A stretch of DNA of 64,000 nucleotides. It comes from Sphaerisporangium album (GTDB taxonomy: Bacteria > Actinomycetota > Actinomycetes > Streptosporangiales > Streptosporangiaceae). Below, in pieces: positions 6,876-29,938 of the stretch. The notes below the pieces were generated by a model that was not told the DNA's origin, ran no database searches, and saw nothing but the letters and a program-made list of their open reading frames with translations. Both the position numbers and the translations under genes were made by a program. The stretch is from NCBI RefSeq assembly GCF_003323745.1, contig NZ_QOIL01000026.1:62001-126000 (forward strand), given 5' to 3'. Each line of letters starts with the position of its first letter. Within the stretch, counting starts at the first letter, position 1.

Positions 6876-7770
6876 GGTCGACGGCCTGAGAAAACGGTAT
6901 GGCGACACGGTGGCACTCGACGGCGTCAGCCTGACGGTGCGCTCCGGTGAGATGTTCGGCTTCGTCGGCGCCAACGGCGCGGGGAAGACGACGACGATGC
7001 GCATCGTGATGGGCGTGCTGAGCAGCGACGGCGGCGAGGTGCGCTGGAACGGCGACCGGGCCGGCCACGAGACCCGCCGCCGGTTCGGCTACATGCCGGA
7101 GGAGCGCGGGCTGTACGCGAAGATGCGCGTGGGCGAGCAGATCGAGTACTTCGGCAGGCTCGGCGGCATGAGCCCGCAGGCCGCCAAGAGGTCGGCGGAC
7201 GAGCTGATCGAGCGGCTGAGCCTGACCGAGCGGCGCGGCGACGACGTCGACAGCCTGTCGCTGGGCAACCAGCAGCGCGTGCAGCTCGCCGTGGCGCTCA
7301 TCCACGGCCCCGAGCTGCTGGTCCTGGACGAGCCGTTCTCCGGCCTCGACCCGATCGCGGTCGACGCGCTGGCCGGCGTCCTCGCCGAGCGCAAGGCGGC
7401 GGGGGTGCCGGTCGTCTTCTCCAGCCACCAGCTCGACCTGGTCGAGCGCCTGTGCGACTCGGTCGGCATCATCAAGGCGGGGCGCATGATCGCCGGGGGC
7501 ACGGTCGAGGAGCTGCGGGCACGGGAGTCCCGCAAGCGCCTGCGCATCGTCGTGACCGGCGCGCTGCCCGGCTGGGCCGACCGGCTGCCCGGCGAGATCG
7601 TCGCCAAGACCGACCGCACGTTCGGCGACGGCGCGCGGTACGACGAGGTGATCCTCACGCCCACCGACGACCAGGAGGCCCTGCGCGTCGCCGCCCAGGC
7701 CGGCCAGGTCCAGCACTTCGCCTGGCAGGAGCCTTCGCTGGCCGAGATCTTCCGTGAGGTGGTCGCGTGA
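6868..7770 (+). CDS. ABC exporter ATP-binding protein (NatA/YhaQ-like)
   Basis: 300 residues. Walker A GANGAGKTT is at about residue 37, signature LSLGNQQRVQLAVALIHGP at about residue 131, Walker B LLVLDEPFSGLDP at about residue 150, and the switch histidine is in VVFSSHQLDLVE. The signature reads LSLGNQQ rather than LSGGQ, which is typical of the NatA/YhaQ subgroup. The C-terminal 85 residues form the usual extra domain of this group. It energises the permease encoded next, with which it overlaps by 4 bp. Confidence 0.93.
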   Translation: MLEVDGLRKRYGDTVALDGVSLTVRSGEMFGFVGANGAGKTTTMRIVMGVLSSDGGEVRWNGDRAGHETRRRFGYMPEERGLYAKMRVGEQIEYFGRLGGMSPQAAKRSADELIERLSLTERRGDDVDSLSLGNQQRVQLAVALIHGPELLVLDEPFSGLDPIAVDALAGVLAERKAAGVPVVFSSHQLDLVERLCDSVGIIKAGRMIAGGTVEELRARESRKRLRIVVTGALPGWADRLPGEIVAKTDRTFGDGARYDEVILTPTDDQEALRVAAQAGQVQHFAWQEPSLAEIFREVVA

Positions 7771-8939
7771 ACGCCGTGACGCTCGTCGCCCGCCGCGAGA
7801 TCGACGTTCGGAGCCGGACGAAGGGCTTCCGCTACGGGCTGCTCGTGACGGCGGTGCTCGTGGCCGTGCTCGCCGCCCTTCCCAAGCTGATCGGCGGCGG
7901 CTCCGACTACACCGTGGGCCTGGCGGGGCAGCAGGCCGACCGGCTCCAGGCGGCGCTCGCCGCCCAGGCCGCGCAGGCGGGCGACGTCACCGTCACGGTC
8001 ACGCGGTACGCCGACGAGGCCGCGGCGCGCAAGGGCGTCGAGGACGGCGACGTCGAGGCGGCCGTCGTGGACAACGCCACCGTCATCGCCAAGACCGTGG
8101 TCGGCGACAGCCTGGCGGTGATGCTCGACACGGCCCACCGCGCGGTCGCCACCGAGGCGAACCTCACGGCCGCGGGCCTCGACCCGGCCAAGGTCGGGCA
8201 GGCCCAGCGGGTCGGGCCGATGAAGGCCGTGTCGCTCAACGGCACCGGCGAGGACGCCACGATCCGGCGCGTGCTCGCCATGGTCATCGTCGTCATCCTG
8301 TTCATGCTGCTGATCCAGGTCTGCACCTGGGTGGCGATGGGCGTGGTGGAGGAGAAGGGCAGCAGGATCGTCGAGATCCTGCTCACCGCGGTGCGCCCGT
8401 GGCAGCTGCTGGCGGGCAAGGTCATCGGCCTGGGCGTGCTCGGGCTGTCCCAGGTGATCGTCATCGCGGTGGTCGGCCTGGCGGCGGCGCAGATCACCGG
8501 CGCGGTTCCGGACCTGCCCGAGGGCACGTACGGGGTGGTGGCGGGCGCCGTCGTGTGGTTCCTGCTGGGCTACGTCTTCTACGCGGCGATGTTCGCGGCC
8601 ATCGCCTCGCTGGTGTCCAGGCAGGAGGAGCTCAGCGGAGTGCTGACCCCCGCGACGATGCTGCTGATGGCCAGCTACCTGGTCGGGTTCGTCGCGGCGG
8701 GCGCGCCCGACAGCACTCTGACGCACGTGCTGTCGATCGTCCCGCCGTTCTCCGCGATGGTCATGCCGGTACGCTCGGCGGTCGTCGACGTGCCGCTCTG
8801 GGAGACGGGCCTGGCCGCGGGGCTGATGATCGTCGCGGCGGTCGCCGTGCTGCTGCTCGGCGGGCGTATCTACCAGCGGGCGGTCCTGCGCACCGGCGCC
8901 CGGGTGAAGTGGCGCGAGGCACTCGCCTCGGCGTCCTGA
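7767..8939 (+). CDS. ABC-2 type permease (NatB/YhaP-like)
   Basis: 390 residues, GTG start overlapping the ATPase stop. One N-terminal membrane helix (about residues 22-38) precedes a large extracytoplasmic domain (about 45-165). Five further hydrophobic segments follow at about 172-195, 222-243, 257-283, 295-312 and 348-370. The motif VVEEKGSRIVEILLTAVRPWQLLAGK between helices 2 and 3 (quoted here in part) is the ABC-2 coupling region. It probably exports Na+ or a small toxic molecule; the substrate cannot be read from the sequence. Confidence 0.9.
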   Translation: MNAVTLVARREIDVRSRTKGFRYGLLVTAVLVAVLAALPKLIGGGSDYTVGLAGQQADRLQAALAAQAAQAGDVTVTVTRYADEAAARKGVEDGDVEAAVVDNATVIAKTVVGDSLAVMLDTAHRAVATEANLTAAGLDPAKVGQAQRVGPMKAVSLNGTGEDATIRRVLAMVIVVILFMLLIQVCTWVAMGVVEEKGSRIVEILLTAVRPWQLLAGKVIGLGVLGLSQVIVIAVVGLAAAQITGAVPDLPEGTYGVVAGAVVWFLLGYVFYAAMFAAIASLVSRQEELSGVLTPATMLLMASYLVGFVAAGAPDSTLTHVLSIVPPFSAMVMPVRSAVVDVPLWETGLAAGLMIVAAVAVLLLGGRIYQRAVLRTGARVKWREALASAS

Positions 8940-8948
8940 GTTGCGAAC

Positions 8949-8993
8949 CATCCCCCTTGTGCGGTGAGCTGATATGTCCGCACAGGGGGGATG
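8949..8993 (+). promoter_or_regulatory. Hairpin that covers the ribosome-binding site and start codon of the next gene
   Basis: Arms 8949-8964 and 8978-8993 (16 nt, one G-T pair, 13-nt loop). The right arm contains the AGGGGGG ribosome-binding site and the ATG of the acetyltransferase gene. It may terminate the ABC operon, or hide the translation start on read-through transcripts. Confidence 0.6.
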
Positions 8994-10106
8994 AAATTGT
9001 CCGGCTTTGAACAGCACTTGACGATCACGACCAAGCGGCTCGTGCTCCGGCCCTTCGGCCCGCACGACGCCGACAGGGTGAGGGTGATCGTCGAGTCCGG
9101 CGCACGGTTCCTCCCGCCGGGCGTCCCCGCTCACGTCTCCGGCGTGTCCCAGTGGCTCTCCTACGGCGTGCACGAGCTGTGGCGGTCCGGCCAGGGCGTC
9201 CACCTCGCGATGCTCGCCGACGGCGTCATCGTCGGCGCGATCAGCCTTTTCAAGGCCGTGTGGGCCGCCGGGACCGCCGAGGTCGGGTACGGCGTCCACC
9301 CCATGCACCGCGGCCGGGGGTACGCCACCGAAGCCCTCGCCGGGCTGACCGAGTGGGCGCTCACCGAGGGCGGCCTGCGCCGGGTGGAGCTGCGCGCCAA
9401 CCTGGACAACACCTCGTCGCTCCGCGTCGCCGAGAAGGCCGGGTTCACCCGCGAGGGGCTGTTGCGCGGCGGCGGCCACGAGGACGACGGGCCGCACGAC
9501 CTGGTGGTCTTCGGCATGATCTCCCGCGATCTCGCCATGGGGCCGCCGACGGTGAACGGCCGCGGCTTCGGCACCGGCGTCCGCCTGGAGAGCGAGCGGC
9601 TCCTGCTGCGTCCCTTCACCGGCACCGACGCCCGCGACGTCCACGCCGCGGTCGACGGCGACCCCGAGATCAACCGCTGGATGCCCTGGGCCGAGGGGTA
9701 CGACCTCCAGCGCGCGTACGACTGGTGCACCCGGTACGCCCACGCCGACTCGGTGAACGGCGTCCACTTCGCCATCGAGCCCAGGACCGGGGGCCGGCTG
9801 GCCGGCTCGGCCGGAGTGCAGCGGGCCGACTGGGAACGCGGGGACGCCGAGATCGGCTACTGGATCTCGCCCTGGGCGCGGCGTCAGGGCGTCGCGCTGG
9901 AGGCGACCCGGGCGCTGACCACGTTCCTCATGATGCGCGGGTTCCACCGGGTCACGCTGCTCATCGCGGTGGGCAACCACGCGAGCCAGGGGGTGGCCAG
10001 GAAGGCGGGCTTCACCGAGGAGGGAATCCTGCGGCGCGCCCTGCACGTCTCCGGCGGCCTCTCCGACGCCGTCCTGTTCAGCCTGCTCAAGGGCGAACCC
10101 TTCTAA
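8991..10106 (+). CDS. Two-domain GNAT N-acetyltransferase (RimJ/RimL-like)
   Basis: 371 residues with two consecutive GNAT domains (about 8-180 and 195-368). Each has the acetyl-CoA loop motif (GVHPMHRGRGYATEAL and ISPWARRQGVALEAT) and the downstream NxxSxxVAxKAGF element (NTSSLRVAEKAGF, NHASQGVARKAGF). The two halves are related, so the gene is an internal fusion or duplication. RimJ/RimL-type enzymes acetylate protein N-termini or small amines; the substrate is unknown here. The second domain keeps the strand-ending FSLLKGE. The start codon is buried in a hairpin. Confidence 0.88.
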   Translation: MKLSGFEQHLTITTKRLVLRPFGPHDADRVRVIVESGARFLPPGVPAHVSGVSQWLSYGVHELWRSGQGVHLAMLADGVIVGAISLFKAVWAAGTAEVGYGVHPMHRGRGYATEALAGLTEWALTEGGLRRVELRANLDNTSSLRVAEKAGFTREGLLRGGGHEDDGPHDLVVFGMISRDLAMGPPTVNGRGFGTGVRLESERLLLRPFTGTDARDVHAAVDGDPEINRWMPWAEGYDLQRAYDWCTRYAHADSVNGVHFAIEPRTGGRLAGSAGVQRADWERGDAEIGYWISPWARRQGVALEATRALTTFLMMRGFHRVTLLIAVGNHASQGVARKAGFTEEGILRRALHVSGGLSDAVLFSLLKGEPF

Positions 10107-10284
10107 GCGGCAGGTAACGGAGGCGGAGGGGTGTCTCCGCCGGTCGCTCCGTCCGCAAGATCACGATGAATCATCGGTCTTGACTTGGCCAAATAGGGCG
10201 CAAAGTCATGTCCATGGATTGGCAGATTCGTATATCCTCGCGACCCGGCCAACATAACCGCAGGTCAACGTATCGGAGATCCAT

Positions 10285-25674: not shown

Positions 25675-27237
25675 ATGTCCGGCAGACAGCACAAGGAAAC
25701 GGAGTTGGCCCGGCGAACCCGGGCGCGAGGTCTGGCGACCGGGCGCAGTTCCGCCCGAATCGCCGAGGAGATTTATGAAGAGTGCTCCCCTCATTTCGGG
25801 ACAACTCGAATCAAATCACACCGCCTCGCCCATGGGGTCGCCCTTGCCGATGTGATCGAACAGGTACGCGCTCTGTTCGAACGCGACGGCAAACCGGTAC
25901 CCGGCATAGGGGAAACGCTTCTCAGCGCATACGAAAGCGGGTTGAAACGCCCCGGGCCCGAGTACCTCCACTATCTGTGTTCCGTCTACCGGGTCGAACC
26001 GGCCGCCCTCGGCTACGACGGCCCGTGCATCTGTGGCCACGGCCACCGCATGCCCGGCGTCGTGCGGGGCGGCCTCCAGGAGGTCAAACCCGAGAGTTCC
26101 CCCGAATCGCGCGAGCTGTGGGTCAAGCCGCTCAGCGACTCGACCGCGGACGGGGGTGAGGAGGACGAGAACGTGTTACGTAGGACGCTGCTGGCGATGA
26201 TCGCGGGTACCGCGGTGCCGCTGAACGACTCCGTACTCGGTGCGGCCGACAACATCCGCAGGCGCATGGACGAGACACTGGTGTCGACCACCGTGTCCCC
26301 GGCCATGCTCGATCACTGGGAAGAGGCCGCGGCCTCTTTCGGCCGGCAGTACATGAACACCCCGCCGTTGCGGCAGCTCTGCGACGTGCTCCTGGAGTTC
26401 AGCACGGTCCGGCAGGCGATGGAGCGCCACCAGCCGATCGACCTCCAGGAGCGCCTCTGCGCGCTGGCCGCCCGCCTCTCGGGCCTGGCCGGCATCATCA
26501 TGATCGACCTCGGCGACCAGCGCCTCGCCCGGTCGTTCTTCCGCACCTCGCGCACCGCCGCGGACGAGACCGGGGACCGCGCGCTGCGGGCCTGGGTCAC
26601 CGCGCGCGAGGCACTGGTGCCCCTGTTCTACGGAGATCCGCGCGAGGCCCTCAACCTCGCCAAGAAGAGCCGCGACCTCGCCGGGCAGACACCGTGCGCG
26701 GCCAAGGCCATGGCCCCCGTCGTGGAGGCCAGGGCGCTGTCGATGCTCGCCAACGCGGGAGGCAAGAAGGACGTCGTCGACCAGGCCAAGCGGGCGCTGG
26801 CCCGTGCCAGGGCCGCGTTCGCCCAGATGAACCCGGCTCAGCAGGAGGACACCGTCTTCGGCTACACCGAGCGCCAGCTCTACTTCCACCAGGGCGACGC
26901 CCTGACCCGGCTCGGGCAGACGGTCGAGGCCGACCTGATCCTGGAGCAGGCGCTGGAGAAGTACGAGGGCGACCTGCTCGACCAGACGCTCATCAGATTC
27001 GACCAGGCGCAGTGCAGGCTGCTCGAAGGCGACGGGCGCGAGGCGCTGCGGCTCGGCGAGGAGGCGGTGAACCGGGTGGGCGACGGCTTCCGGACGGACA
27101 TCATCGTGCGCCGGGCCGCCGATCTTGCCAAGGCGATTCAGGTCAAATGTGGTGACATCGACGGGCTCAGGGACTTCATCGAGCGTCTCGCGACGATGAG
27201 CCCGCCCCCTCAGGCACCGGCGGAGGCCGATGTATGA
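25675..27237 (+). CDS. XRE-type regulator with TPR-like sensor domain
   Basis: 520 residues. A divergent helix-turn-helix lies at about residues 42-108 (IKSHRLAHGVALADVIEQVRA, then LLSAYESGLKRPGPEYLHYLC), followed by a CICGHGH motif. From about residue 200 the chain is helical repeats of TPR type (LARSFFRTSRTAADETGDRALRAWV, REALNLAKKSRDLAG, QTVEADLILEQALEKYEGD). This architecture is common in actinomycetes, where such regulators sense peptides or partner proteins. GNAT start and XRE stop overlap by 4 bp, so the pair is one operon. Confidence 0.85.
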   Translation: MSGRQHKETELARRTRARGLATGRSSARIAEEIYEECSPHFGTTRIKSHRLAHGVALADVIEQVRALFERDGKPVPGIGETLLSAYESGLKRPGPEYLHYLCSVYRVEPAALGYDGPCICGHGHRMPGVVRGGLQEVKPESSPESRELWVKPLSDSTADGGEEDENVLRRTLLAMIAGTAVPLNDSVLGAADNIRRRMDETLVSTTVSPAMLDHWEEAAASFGRQYMNTPPLRQLCDVLLEFSTVRQAMERHQPIDLQERLCALAARLSGLAGIIMIDLGDQRLARSFFRTSRTAADETGDRALRAWVTAREALVPLFYGDPREALNLAKKSRDLAGQTPCAAKAMAPVVEARALSMLANAGGKKDVVDQAKRALARARAAFAQMNPAQQEDTVFGYTERQLYFHQGDALTRLGQTVEADLILEQALEKYEGDLLDQTLIRFDQAQCRLLEGDGREALRLGEEAVNRVGDGFRTDIIVRRAADLAKAIQVKCGDIDGLRDFIERLATMSPPPQAPAEADV

Positions 27238-27731
27238 CGCTTGCGCTCAGGCGGTATCGCTGGTCGGATCGGGAAGCCGTCTGGGACCTGCACCGCACCT
27301 GTCTCGCCCAGGTCGGGATCACCCTGGGAGACGGGGTCTACTACGACGATGACATCCCGCGCATCAACGAGGTCTACCTGGCCGACCGGGGCGAGTTCCT
27401 GGTCGGCGAGGTAGAGGGCGCCGGCATCGTGGCCATGGGCGGCCTGCGGCGCGTCGACGACGCGTGCGCGGAGCTGTGCCGGCTGCGGGTCCGTCCCGAC
27501 TTCCAGCGGCGCGGGTTCGGCACGCTGATCATCGACGCGCTGGAGGAGTCCGCGCGGAGGCTCGGCTACAGCACGCTGCGTGGTGACACGACGCTGGCGC
27601 AGGGTGCGGCGCTGGAGCTCTACCGGAAGTACGGCTGGCGGGAAGTCCGCCGGGAGCAGAGGGGCGGACTTGTGGTTGTTTACGGGGAGAAGCCCCTGAC
27701 GTCGCAGCCTTCATCGCAACTTACCCGCTAG
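27234..27731 (+). CDS. GNAT acetyltransferase coupled to the XRE-TPR regulator
   Basis: 165 residues, ATG overlapping the XRE stop (ATGA). A single GNAT fold: LRRYRWSDREAVWDLHRTCL, EFLVGEVEGAGIVAMGGL, acetyl-CoA motif RVRPDFQRRGFGTLIIDALEE, and YRKYGWREVRRE near the end. The substrate is unknown. Tight coupling to a regulator hints that it modifies the regulator's target or ligand; the peptide gene 110 bp downstream is a conceivable substrate because it is Lys-rich (speculation). Confidence 0.88.
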   Translation: MTLALRRYRWSDREAVWDLHRTCLAQVGITLGDGVYYDDDIPRINEVYLADRGEFLVGEVEGAGIVAMGGLRRVDDACAELCRLRVRPDFQRRGFGTLIIDALEESARRLGYSTLRGDTTLAQGAALELYRKYGWREVRREQRGGLVVVYGEKPLTSQPSSQLTR

Positions 27732-27773: not shown

Positions 27774-27801
27774 TTGCGGATTTATCGATTTGTCCGATAA
27801 T
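27774..27801 (+). promoter_or_regulatory. Promoter overlapped by an inverted repeat, upstream of the peptide gene
   Basis: TTGCGG (27774-27779) and GATAAT (27796-27801) are 16 nt apart. The inverted repeat TTTATCG (27781-27787) / CGATAAT (27795-27801), with a 7-nt centre, occupies the spacer and the -10. A similar pair of half-sites recurs inside the downstream gene at 28440-28459. Confidence 0.55.
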
Positions 27802-27802
27802 T

Positions 27803-27823
27803 AGGTCTTTGTAGTGAAGACCT
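27803..27823 (+). promoter_or_regulatory. 5' UTR hairpin before the peptide gene
   Basis: AGGTCTT and AAGACCT (7 bp, 7-nt loop) lie just downstream of the predicted -10 and end 2 nt before the GAGGAGAGGG ribosome-binding site. It may stabilise the transcript or control translation. Confidence 0.5.
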
Positions 27824-27839
27824 GAGGAGAGGGCACCCG

Positions 27840-27914
27840 ATGAAGAAGATCGTCGTCCGCAAGCCTGGCATGGTCCATCTCACCGGCAGCGCGAGTGCGA
27901 TCCACAAGGGGTGA
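27840..27914 (+). CDS. 24-residue basic peptide (possible precursor or signal peptide)
   Basis: ATG at 27840, 6 nt after a strong GAGGAGAGGG, and TGA at 27912-27914. The peptide begins MKKIVVRKPGMV and ends IHKG, with Thr and three Ser in between and no Cys. It has five Lys/Arg in the first eleven residues. The stop codon overlaps the GTG of the next gene by 3 nt, so the two are translationally coupled. The short length, fixed coupling and dedicated promoter suggest a genuine peptide gene. RiPP-like precursor, signal peptide and leader peptide are all possible; I do not recognise a family. Confidence 0.6.
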   Translation: MKKIVVRKPGMVHLTGSASAIHKG

Positions 27915-29938
27915 CCGGCCGTCCCGGCCACCTCTGGATCCACGGGGGGCGCTCGCGCGACCGCCTGACCGTGCTCGACGGGCTCGGCCTGCCGTGGTGG
28001 CCGATCCCGGTCGTCGACGCCCACCGGCGCCTTCGAGGGCCGTACACCTTCGGGGGAGCGCTGCTCCATGCCTTGGTGCCGGCCGCGCTTGAGCGCGCCC
28101 CCGGTGTCGTGGCGGACCACGACATCGAGATCCGAGCGGCGGCACCCGATCTTCGGGACCGGGTGCCCGCCCGCCGGGATCCCCTGTACGTCCGCCTGCC
28201 CGACGAGGAGCGCATCCTCGTGCCGGCCCCGCGCCGCACGCTGCGGATCGCGAATGGAATCGCCGAATTCGTCCGGGACTGCGGGGTGAAGCTCCCGGCC
28301 ATCGTGGCCGAGAACGTCGACGAGGCGGACGAGACCGACCGCGAACTTCTCCACACGCTGTCGCGCCGTTTCGACTCCGCTCGATTGACAATTGTCGTGT
28401 GTTCGAGTAAAGCGCCCCAAGATTGGTTTAGCGGGCAGGCGATAAAAGCGGATTTATCGGCTACGGAAGATCCACGGGATCTTGCCGACCGTTATGTCGC
28501 CTTCGATGGCACCCTGGACGACCCCCGGGCGCCCGCCGCCTACCACGCCCTGCCCCCCGCAGAGCGTGCCCGCCTGCACGACCGGCGCGCCGACGCGCTC
28601 GCCGCCACCGGGGAGCGGTCCCACGCCCTGGGCGCCATCCCCTACCACCGCGAGCACGGGAGCGACCCGTCCGGCGCGGGGGTGGAGGCGCTGTGGGACG
28701 CACTGGACCACTGCCTGGGCGAGGGCTTCCTGCACGCCGCCGCCGACTTCGGGCTGCGCGGCCTGGCCCTGGCCGAGCCGGCGACGGGCCGGTGGTGGAA
28801 CCTGCTCCAGGGTACGGCGACCGCGCTGGCCGGCCTCGGACGCCGGGACGAGGCGCGCGAGCTGTACGAGCGGGCCCGCCGCGCCAGCCTGGATCCGGAG
28901 GTGCACTCGGCGGCGGCCTACGGCGCCGCCATGCTGGACGCGCGCCACCCCGACCCCGCCCGGCGCGACCTCGGCCGCGCCCAGGGCTGGGTCAACGAGG
29001 CCATCGCGATCTCCACGCTGCTGCCCGACCGCGCCGTCCGCGCCTTCAAGCTGGGCTTCGACCTCAACGGCAAGGCCCTCATCGAGATGCGCGCGGGCCG
29101 CGTCGAGGCGGCGCTCACGCTGGTCGAATCCGCCATCAAGCTCGCCGAGACCGATCTTCCCCCCGAGCGCCACCTGGTCCACCGCATGATCCTGCGCGCC
29201 AACCGGGCGCAGCTCCTCGGCGTGATGGGTCACCCCGAGGAGGCCCTGGCCGACCTGGACGCCGCCGTGGCGATGGACCCCGACTACCCCGACTATCACC
29301 TGGACCGCGGCAACCTGCTCTTCCAGATGGGCCGCACGGAGGCGGCGCTGGCCGACTACGACGCCGCCGCCCGGCTGAGCCCGCCCCTGCCCGAGGCGCA
29401 CTACAACCGCGCCCAGCTCCTGCTCGCCGAGGGCGACCTCCCGGCGGCCAGGGCCGACCTCGACCGCGTGATCGAGCTCGACCCCGGCTACCTCGACGCC
29501 TACATCAACCGCGCCGGGCTGCTGGCCCAGCTCGGCCTCGACGGGGCCGCGCGGGCCGACGTGGACGCCGGGCTGGCGCTCGCCCCGCGCAACCCCCACC
29601 TGTTGTGCGTCCTCGGGCAGCTCGAAACCGTGGCCGGGCGGTACGCGCGGGCGCGCGAGGCGTTCGACGGGGCGCTCGCGGCCGCGCCCGGCCTCGTCCC
29701 GGCGTGGGCCGGACGGGCGAGCCTGCGGTACGAGACGGCCGACCTGGAGGGCGCGGTGGCCGACCTGACGCGCGCCCTCGGCCTGGGCGAGGACGCGGCG
29801 CTCTACTTCAACCGCGCCGTCGCCCTCGGAGACCTCGGCCGCCGGGCCGCCGCCCTGGCCGACCTGCGCCGGGCCCAGGAACTGGCCCCGGACGACGAGG
29901 ACATCCTCACCGCCCTCCGCGAGCACCCGTCCGGCTGA
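27911..29938 (+). CDS. Degenerate STAND-like protein with C-terminal TPR array
   Basis: 675 residues, GTG start inside the peptide stop codon. The N-terminal 180 residues resemble a STAND/AAA module but lack a Walker A: the expected P-loop position reads LWIHGGRSRDRLTVLDGLGL. A Walker-B-like strand survives (PAIVAENVDEADETDRELLH, then LTIVVCSS). A winged-helix-like linker (about 200-245) and helical repeats follow, with about seven clear TPRs between residues 425 and 670 (for example HLDRGNLLFQMGRTEAALAD and HYNRAQLLLAEGDLPAARAD). It should bind protein or peptide partners and not hydrolyse ATP. The coupled 24-residue peptide is the obvious candidate ligand (inference). Confidence 0.75.
   Translation: MTGRPGHLWIHGGRSRDRLTVLDGLGLPWWPIPVVDAHRRLRGPYTFGGALLHALVPAALERAPGVVADHDIEIRAAAPDLRDRVPARRDPLYVRLPDEERILVPAPRRTLRIANGIAEFVRDCGVKLPAIVAENVDEADETDRELLHTLSRRFDSARLTIVVCSSKAPQDWFSGQAIKADLSATEDPRDLADRYVAFDGTLDDPRAPAAYHALPPAERARLHDRRADALAATGERSHALGAIPYHREHGSDPSGAGVEALWDALDHCLGEGFLHAAADFGLRGLALAEPATGRWWNLLQGTATALAGLGRRDEARELYERARRASLDPEVHSAAAYGAAMLDARHPDPARRDLGRAQGWVNEAIAISTLLPDRAVRAFKLGFDLNGKALIEMRAGRVEAALTLVESAIKLAETDLPPERHLVHRMILRANRAQLLGVMGHPEEALADLDAAVAMDPDYPDYHLDRGNLLFQMGRTEAALADYDAAARLSPPLPEAHYNRAQLLLAEGDLPAARADLDRVIELDPGYLDAYINRAGLLAQLGLDGAARADVDAGLALAPRNPHLLCVLGQLETVAGRYARAREAFDGALAAAPGLVPAWAGRASLRYETADLEGAVADLTRALGLGEDAALYFNRAVALGDLGRRAAALADLRRAQELAPDDEDILTALREHPSG
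28385..28413 (+). promoter_or_regulatory. Promoter-like sequence inside the STAND/TPR gene
   Basis: TTGACA (28385-28390) and TAAAGC (28408-28413) with a 17-nt spacer lie in an AT-rich patch (about 28380-28470) of an otherwise GC-rich gene. The -35 overlaps the perfect palindrome GACAATTGTC, and CGATAAA/TTTATCG half-sites follow at 28440-28459. A transcript from here could make the TPR part alone. Confidence 0.45.

Follow-up and report, generated by a model that had tools for sequence, protein, structure and literature searches.

The locus of interest in the window (the 64,000-nucleotide stretch of Sphaerisporangium album DNA analysed here) consists of a 24-codon peptide gene and a gene for a 675-residue TPR protein, joined by a 4-bp overlap (Table 1); both genes, the ribosome-binding site and the junction were confirmed where a preliminary description of the sequence had placed them. 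The peptide is notable for its N-terminal MKKIxVRKPGxVxL segment, for Arg7 and for His22. The promoter and 5′ hairpin proposed in the same description are conserved in the genus. Among 10 genus members the CTTGCGGAT...ATAAT of the promoter-like site is nearly invariant and the bases around it drift; the hairpin sequence is kept in most genus members, being weak in L047, and by energy alone it is only mildly unusual. A search of the region against Rfam gave no match.

Table 1. Features of the peptide/TPR locus, with positions numbered along the window.
Feature	Positions	Strand	Basis or remark
Promoter-like TTGCGG (27774-27779), 16 nt, GATAAT (27796-27801)	27774..27801	+	Conservation within genus
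5′ stem-loop at expected transcript start	27801..27825	+	Predicted 10-bp stem, -12.1 kcal/mol, z -1.8
Shine-Dalgarno-like GAGGAGAGGG	27824..27833	+	Sequence; strong site ahead of peptide ATG
24-residue peptide gene, type IIa, MKKIVVRKPGMVHLTGSASAIHKG	27840..27914	+	ATG 27840, stop TGA 27912-27914, 24 codons
GTGA overlap of peptide stop and TPR-protein start	27911..27914	+	AAG/AAA GGG TGA in 47/48 type IIa loci
Degenerate-STAND/TPR protein, 675 aa, proposed dedicated peptide partner	27911..29938	+	GTG start 27911; Pfam, AlphaFold of homologue
STAND-like N-terminal module, AHRRLRGPYT at the P-loop place, Walker-B-like VAENVDEADETDRELL kept	27911..28510	+	hhalign, homologue fold
TPR superhelix	28778..29905	+	Pfam TPR models up to E 2.9e-29; PDB fold matches

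The peptide gene is real and under purifying selection, because its frame has a pN/pS of 0.24 across 48 type IIa orthologues (type IIa being the form found in the window), where the other two forward frames reach 1.66 and 1.61, and because its length is 24 codons in 48/48 loci. Lys2, Ile4, Lys8, Leu14, Gly16, Ser19, Ile21, His22, Lys23 and Gly24 are invariant in type IIa peptides. When the peptide profile was compared with the 9.3-Mb genome of the organism, a single strong copy was found (E 2.7e-13; next best 0.34); both this match and the pN/pS contrast are better than chance. The peptide matches no known family in Pfam, NCBIfam or PHROGs and a literature search with its motif found nothing, in keeping with the preliminary description; PADLOC defence models gave no meaningful match. 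In one related locus (L057:7911-8050) the stop codon of the peptide and the TPR gene share a frame, and the probable cause is an assembly error or an indel where GTGA would join them.

Only TPRs are recognised in the large protein by Pfam and NCBIfam. With hhalign, its N-terminal 200 residues match AAA_16/STAND (94%, E 1.1e-7) over the Walker-B part; Walker A (the P-loop) is absent, and a conserved RxxRGPY replaces it in the aligned family members. A STAND-like module lacking the P-loop and followed by TPRs had been proposed from the sequence, and that assignment holds. In an AlphaFold model of the homologue from L112, the TPR part is confident (pLDDT > 90), and strands and helices alternate at 180-262, as in a STAND/AAA core. 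The closest PDB folds of this model are TPR superhelices, including O-GlcNAc transferase; as that fold search returned only TPR superhelices, it shed no light on the N-domain. The modelled chain was the L112 TPR protein read through its own peptide stop, with peptides added as extra rows, and in it the peptide is disordered (pLDDT ~27) and undocked, an outcome that neither supports nor refutes binding.

The preliminary description had suggested that the peptide and the TPR protein form one unit, and proposed looking for the peptide upstream of TPR homologues and for a conserved GTGA. A peptide relative lies upstream in 80/80 loci of the best 80 of 310 TPR homologues found, and GTGA is kept in 47/48 close orthologues. 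Order-wide, among 299 genomes, the TPR gene is present in 143, the peptide in 142 and both in 141, as judged by comparing two genome lists with peptide calls made at a profile E of at most 1e-3. One divergent peptide, in G565, is missed by the profile, so that co-occurrence is 141-142/143; the doubtful exceptions are G577, with a weak TPR match, and G459, with a weak peptide match. To some degree this co-occurrence follows the tree. The window pair also sits within a syntenic chromosomal stretch, and type IIa loci have an NsdA-family regulator (47/47) and a GNAT gene (46/47) as neighbours. In the window the two lie at 25675-27731, the regulator gene first and the GNAT gene after it with a 4-bp overlap (ATGA). 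Membership of the GNAT and NsdA-like genes in the system was considered and rejected: their proximity reflects synteny alone, and the other types do not have them. Beside the window pair there is no protease, transporter or modifying enzyme, nor do its flanks hold a pair-specific third gene.

The wider family takes four forms. Type IIa peptides end in xIHKG and overlap the TPR gene almost universally through GTGA, and type IIb peptides are of the MKxVIVHKPGTVxLSGAASPKHVG type and mostly do not overlap it. In type I, found in Streptomyces, Streptacidiphilus and also Sphaerisporangium, the order is a peptide with a longer Cys-bearing tail, a strong hairpin, a protein of about 400 residues and the TPR gene. 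A strong hairpin after the peptide is found in 10/10 type I and 8/23 type IIb loci, in some of the latter between the peptide and TPR genes, and is not a type IIa feature. Type III is a TPR subfamily, 41% identical, in 8 Streptosporangium-genus genomes. It was considered as a subfamily without a peptide, a reading that was rejected on finding a conserved small peptide of its own, MRKMTVRRKSALRLLSGARRLWIEWCW, in 8/8 genomes with a pN/pS of 0.25; homologues that consistently lack the peptide gene, which would have spoken against a unit, were thus not found even in this divergent fourth subfamily. Peptide and TPR gene are tens of nt to ~1500 nt apart in type I and most IIb loci. In L203, L250 and L251 a peptide of the MKKVIIHKPGTVRLTGAATPKHADPTC type lies on the opposite strand, ~2.5 kb from the TPR gene, and L201 has two tandem type I peptides that differ in their tails alone (QPLYVCYQ and QPLYFCYE). 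Since GTGA coupling is one of several arrangements, it is not the essence of the system.

The type I middle protein is a membrane protein with an N-terminal RRE and an invariant HExxH. Its N-terminus matches PqqD domains with hhalign (95.5%), a match that is partly circular, as two rows of the PqqD set are distant relatives of the middle protein. Independently of this, the confident part of its AlphaFold (AF2) model, an N-domain in bbb-aaa order, matches lasso, cyanobactin and microcin RREs (Foldseek prob 0.97-1.00), with weak E-values because the RRE is one fifth of the model. The HExxH protein scores under the Pfam cut-off for M50, and its membrane part is modelled poorly. Because the type I middle protein carries an RRE, the conserved N-terminus of the type I peptide looks like a RiPP leader. 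The peptide tail changes with the presence of this protein: among 20 distinct peptides beside an RRE protein, Tyr22 is found in 19 (Tyr21 in the remaining one) and Cys in all 20, and 59/62 peptides without an RRE protein have His22, with Cys rare; the three misfits are matches outside types IIa and IIb. In a TPR tree rooted at the midpoint, the forms that lack the RRE protein all fall into a single group (support 100/98) lying among three-gene lineages, so that a single loss of the RRE protein would be the simplest reading under that root. The window pair, with its clear RiPP-like ancestry, would be a stripped offshoot of a larger, older cassette.

The window locus itself has no RRE or other leader-binding domain, and the genome has no close type I copy; the only RRE-HExxH relative found in it is a distant one, partnered by a ThiF protein of its own. 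This relative (L150, own genome G000:C9:229000-244895, at 7292-10131) directly follows a PqqD/ThiF protein and belongs to a second, different peptide-maturation cluster. In other loci (L153 and L154, and also L128 and L142), the cousin peptides MKKLIVRRLESVKTSAATSCSVVVA and MKKLVVRKLEPIKTSANADCVPAAA lie beside distant RRE-HExxH proteins and the TPR gene is absent. Small ORFs ending in KVKIRKLEKIETTINRGGQSG or KITIRLLDKIETTNASNSVGN adjoin ThiF and HExxH proteins in L152 and L159, and are candidate precursors of another cluster type.

The peptide can also be separated from its partner. In 11 genomes the type IIa site (MscS, NsdA-like, GNAT, peptide, PurU) lacks the TPR gene and a remnant of it was sought there without success, yet the peptide is intact and its pN/pS is 0.33, compared with 0.87 when the frame is shifted. 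All 11 of these orphan peptides have His7, and Arg7 is found in 47/49 type IIa peptides with a TPR gene, including those of the same-genus loci L285-L287 (Fisher p 2e-10, uncorrected for kinship). On a tree of the neighbouring NsdA-like gene at least 4 changes of state are needed, so the association of TPR loss with His7 is not one event. The type IIb TPR gene is kept in 11/11 orphan genomes and its peptide carries His7, which suggests that the left-over peptide may have been re-keyed to the remaining IIb TPR protein. On the TPR side, positions 271 (E/A/variable), 274 (L/H/Y) and 343 (D/K/Y) separate types IIa, IIb and I cleanly and are candidates for the peptide-binding site, bearing in mind that both these and the residue-7 differences double as clade markers.

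Taken together, we consider it rather probable that the two genes in the window encode a peptide and its receptor, descended from a cassette for RiPP-like peptide processing. The genes, the selection on the peptide, the co-occurrence and the switches in arrangement and residues are observed; what we infer in the following scheme is binding, processing and a downstream role, if any. The TPR protein would have the 24-residue peptide as its ligand or substrate. Recognition would lie in the N-terminal half of the peptide (MKKIxV-R/H-KPGxVxL), where residue 7 sets the fitting TPR paralogue, and the C-terminal tip, in which position 22 is invariably His or Tyr, would be the working end. In the three-gene form, the N-terminal half is most likely bound by the RRE ahead of the HExxH membrane protein (the candidate sequence in type I of Streptacidiphilus is MKKITVRKAGTVRLT), and the tip with its Tyr and Cys is most likely cut or exported by the membrane protein. 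The window lineage would have lost the RRE-HExxH protein once, exchanged Tyr22/Cys for His22, and kept the peptide and the TPR protein. Translational coupling would ensure that these two are made together, and the TPR protein, with an ATPase core that lacks the usual ATP-binding loop, may work inside the cell as a scaffold or chaperone gated by the peptide. The preliminary reading of a single unit survives in this scheme, but it had missed the RiPP-like RRE-HExxH ancestry, the wider family and the separability of the genes seen in the orphan peptides.

Several other explanations deserve consideration. The GTGA overlap in 47/48 type IIa loci and the presence of a promoter and hairpin just upstream would suit a translated leader (uORF) only, one that sets TPR translation by coupling or ribosome stalling and whose product is inert. 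However, type I and most IIb peptides lie farther off, often behind a strong hairpin and in type I with an intervening gene, and opposite-strand placement (L203, L250, L251) and tandem copies (L201) do not fit such a role. Since the orphan peptides stay selected after TPR loss and switch to His7, they argue against a mere upstream leader and point to a lock-and-key interaction of peptide and TPR protein; a pure leader is quite unlikely. It is unlikely, too, that the peptide is the precursor of a RiPP, with the genes for its modifying enzymes at another place and the pair yielding a modified and possibly secreted product. Relatives do adjoin an RRE-HExxH protein and have Cys-bearing tails, tandem precursors and post-precursor hairpins, and distant RRE-HExxH relatives accompany ThiF/PaaA-like proteins and small peptides, but the tail in the window lineage is nearly invariant and Cys-free, no enzyme is linked to it, and the one RRE-HExxH relative of this genome has a ThiF partner of its own.

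A secreted pheromone, read in RRNPP style by the TPR protein or by the adjoining NsdA-like regulator, is very unlikely. The regulator and the GNAT gene do accompany nearly all type IIa pairs, yet such neighbours are expected where the whole region is syntenic, and the regulator is absent from other types; moreover, the peptide has no evident signal peptide and the TPR protein no DNA-binding domain. A small basic peptide adjoining a larger partner also brings to mind a toxin-antitoxin or immunity pair, but the genes are vertically inherited and syntenic, the peptide outlives its partner and the defence models gave no match, making this highly improbable.

The nearest described arrangement to the peptide/receptor pair is that of the FxSxx-COOH peptide-processing systems of actinobacteria, which have a small peptide gene, a metallopeptidase and a STAND-type ATPase partner with C-terminal TPRs (PMC7159879). 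The likeness lies in the peptide gene with its STAND/TPR partner and, in type I, in an HExxH protein that recalls the metallopeptidase, but the pair is no member: it has no FxSxx tail, radical SAM enzyme or vWA/MoxR core, the conserved part of its peptide is the N-terminus, its TPR protein is P-loop-less and the window form has no peptidase. None of the peptides ends in FxSxx (they end in SxIHKG, ASPKHVG, a Cys/Tyr tail or WIEWCW), and the TPR protein model of those systems is absent from the NCBIfam matches of the large protein. Type I resembles RRE-dependent RiPP clusters (RRE-Finder, PMC7470986, PMC12710340) in its leader-type conserved N-terminus, variable Cys-bearing tail and RRE fused to a presumed processing enzyme. 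It differs in having no known modifying enzyme, and the window form is RRE-free with an invariant tail; a literature search for RiPPs with M50 or TPR proteins found nothing matching. STAND NTPases with TPR sensors share the AAA_16-like core followed by TPRs, but the conserved RxxRGPY replaces the P-loop throughout this family. In the RRNPP receptors (Rap-Phr, Rgg, PlcR), a short peptide is encoded beside a TPR receptor. The gene layout is alike, but the present pair has no HTH or phosphatase output in Pfam or NCBIfam and no secretion signal, and its STAND module is degenerate.

In summary, this is a widespread peptide/TPR pair that is undescribed as far as we have searched. More tentatively, it could represent a new class of intracellular bacterial pairs, in which unmodified 24-residue ligands with lock-and-key residues are read by P-loop-less STAND/TPR proteins. 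Such ligands would descend from RiPP precursors that had lost their processing enzyme, and one cell could house several pairs insulated from each other. The peptide gene is too short for usual annotation, yet it is conserved in more than 100 genomes with a single partner. The presence of several paralogous pairs per cell, together with a residue that flips upon partner loss, makes specificity testable by a one-residue swap. The pair would also provide a case of a RiPP-type precursor outliving its processing enzyme, which bears on how such peptides may become ordinary components of the cell.
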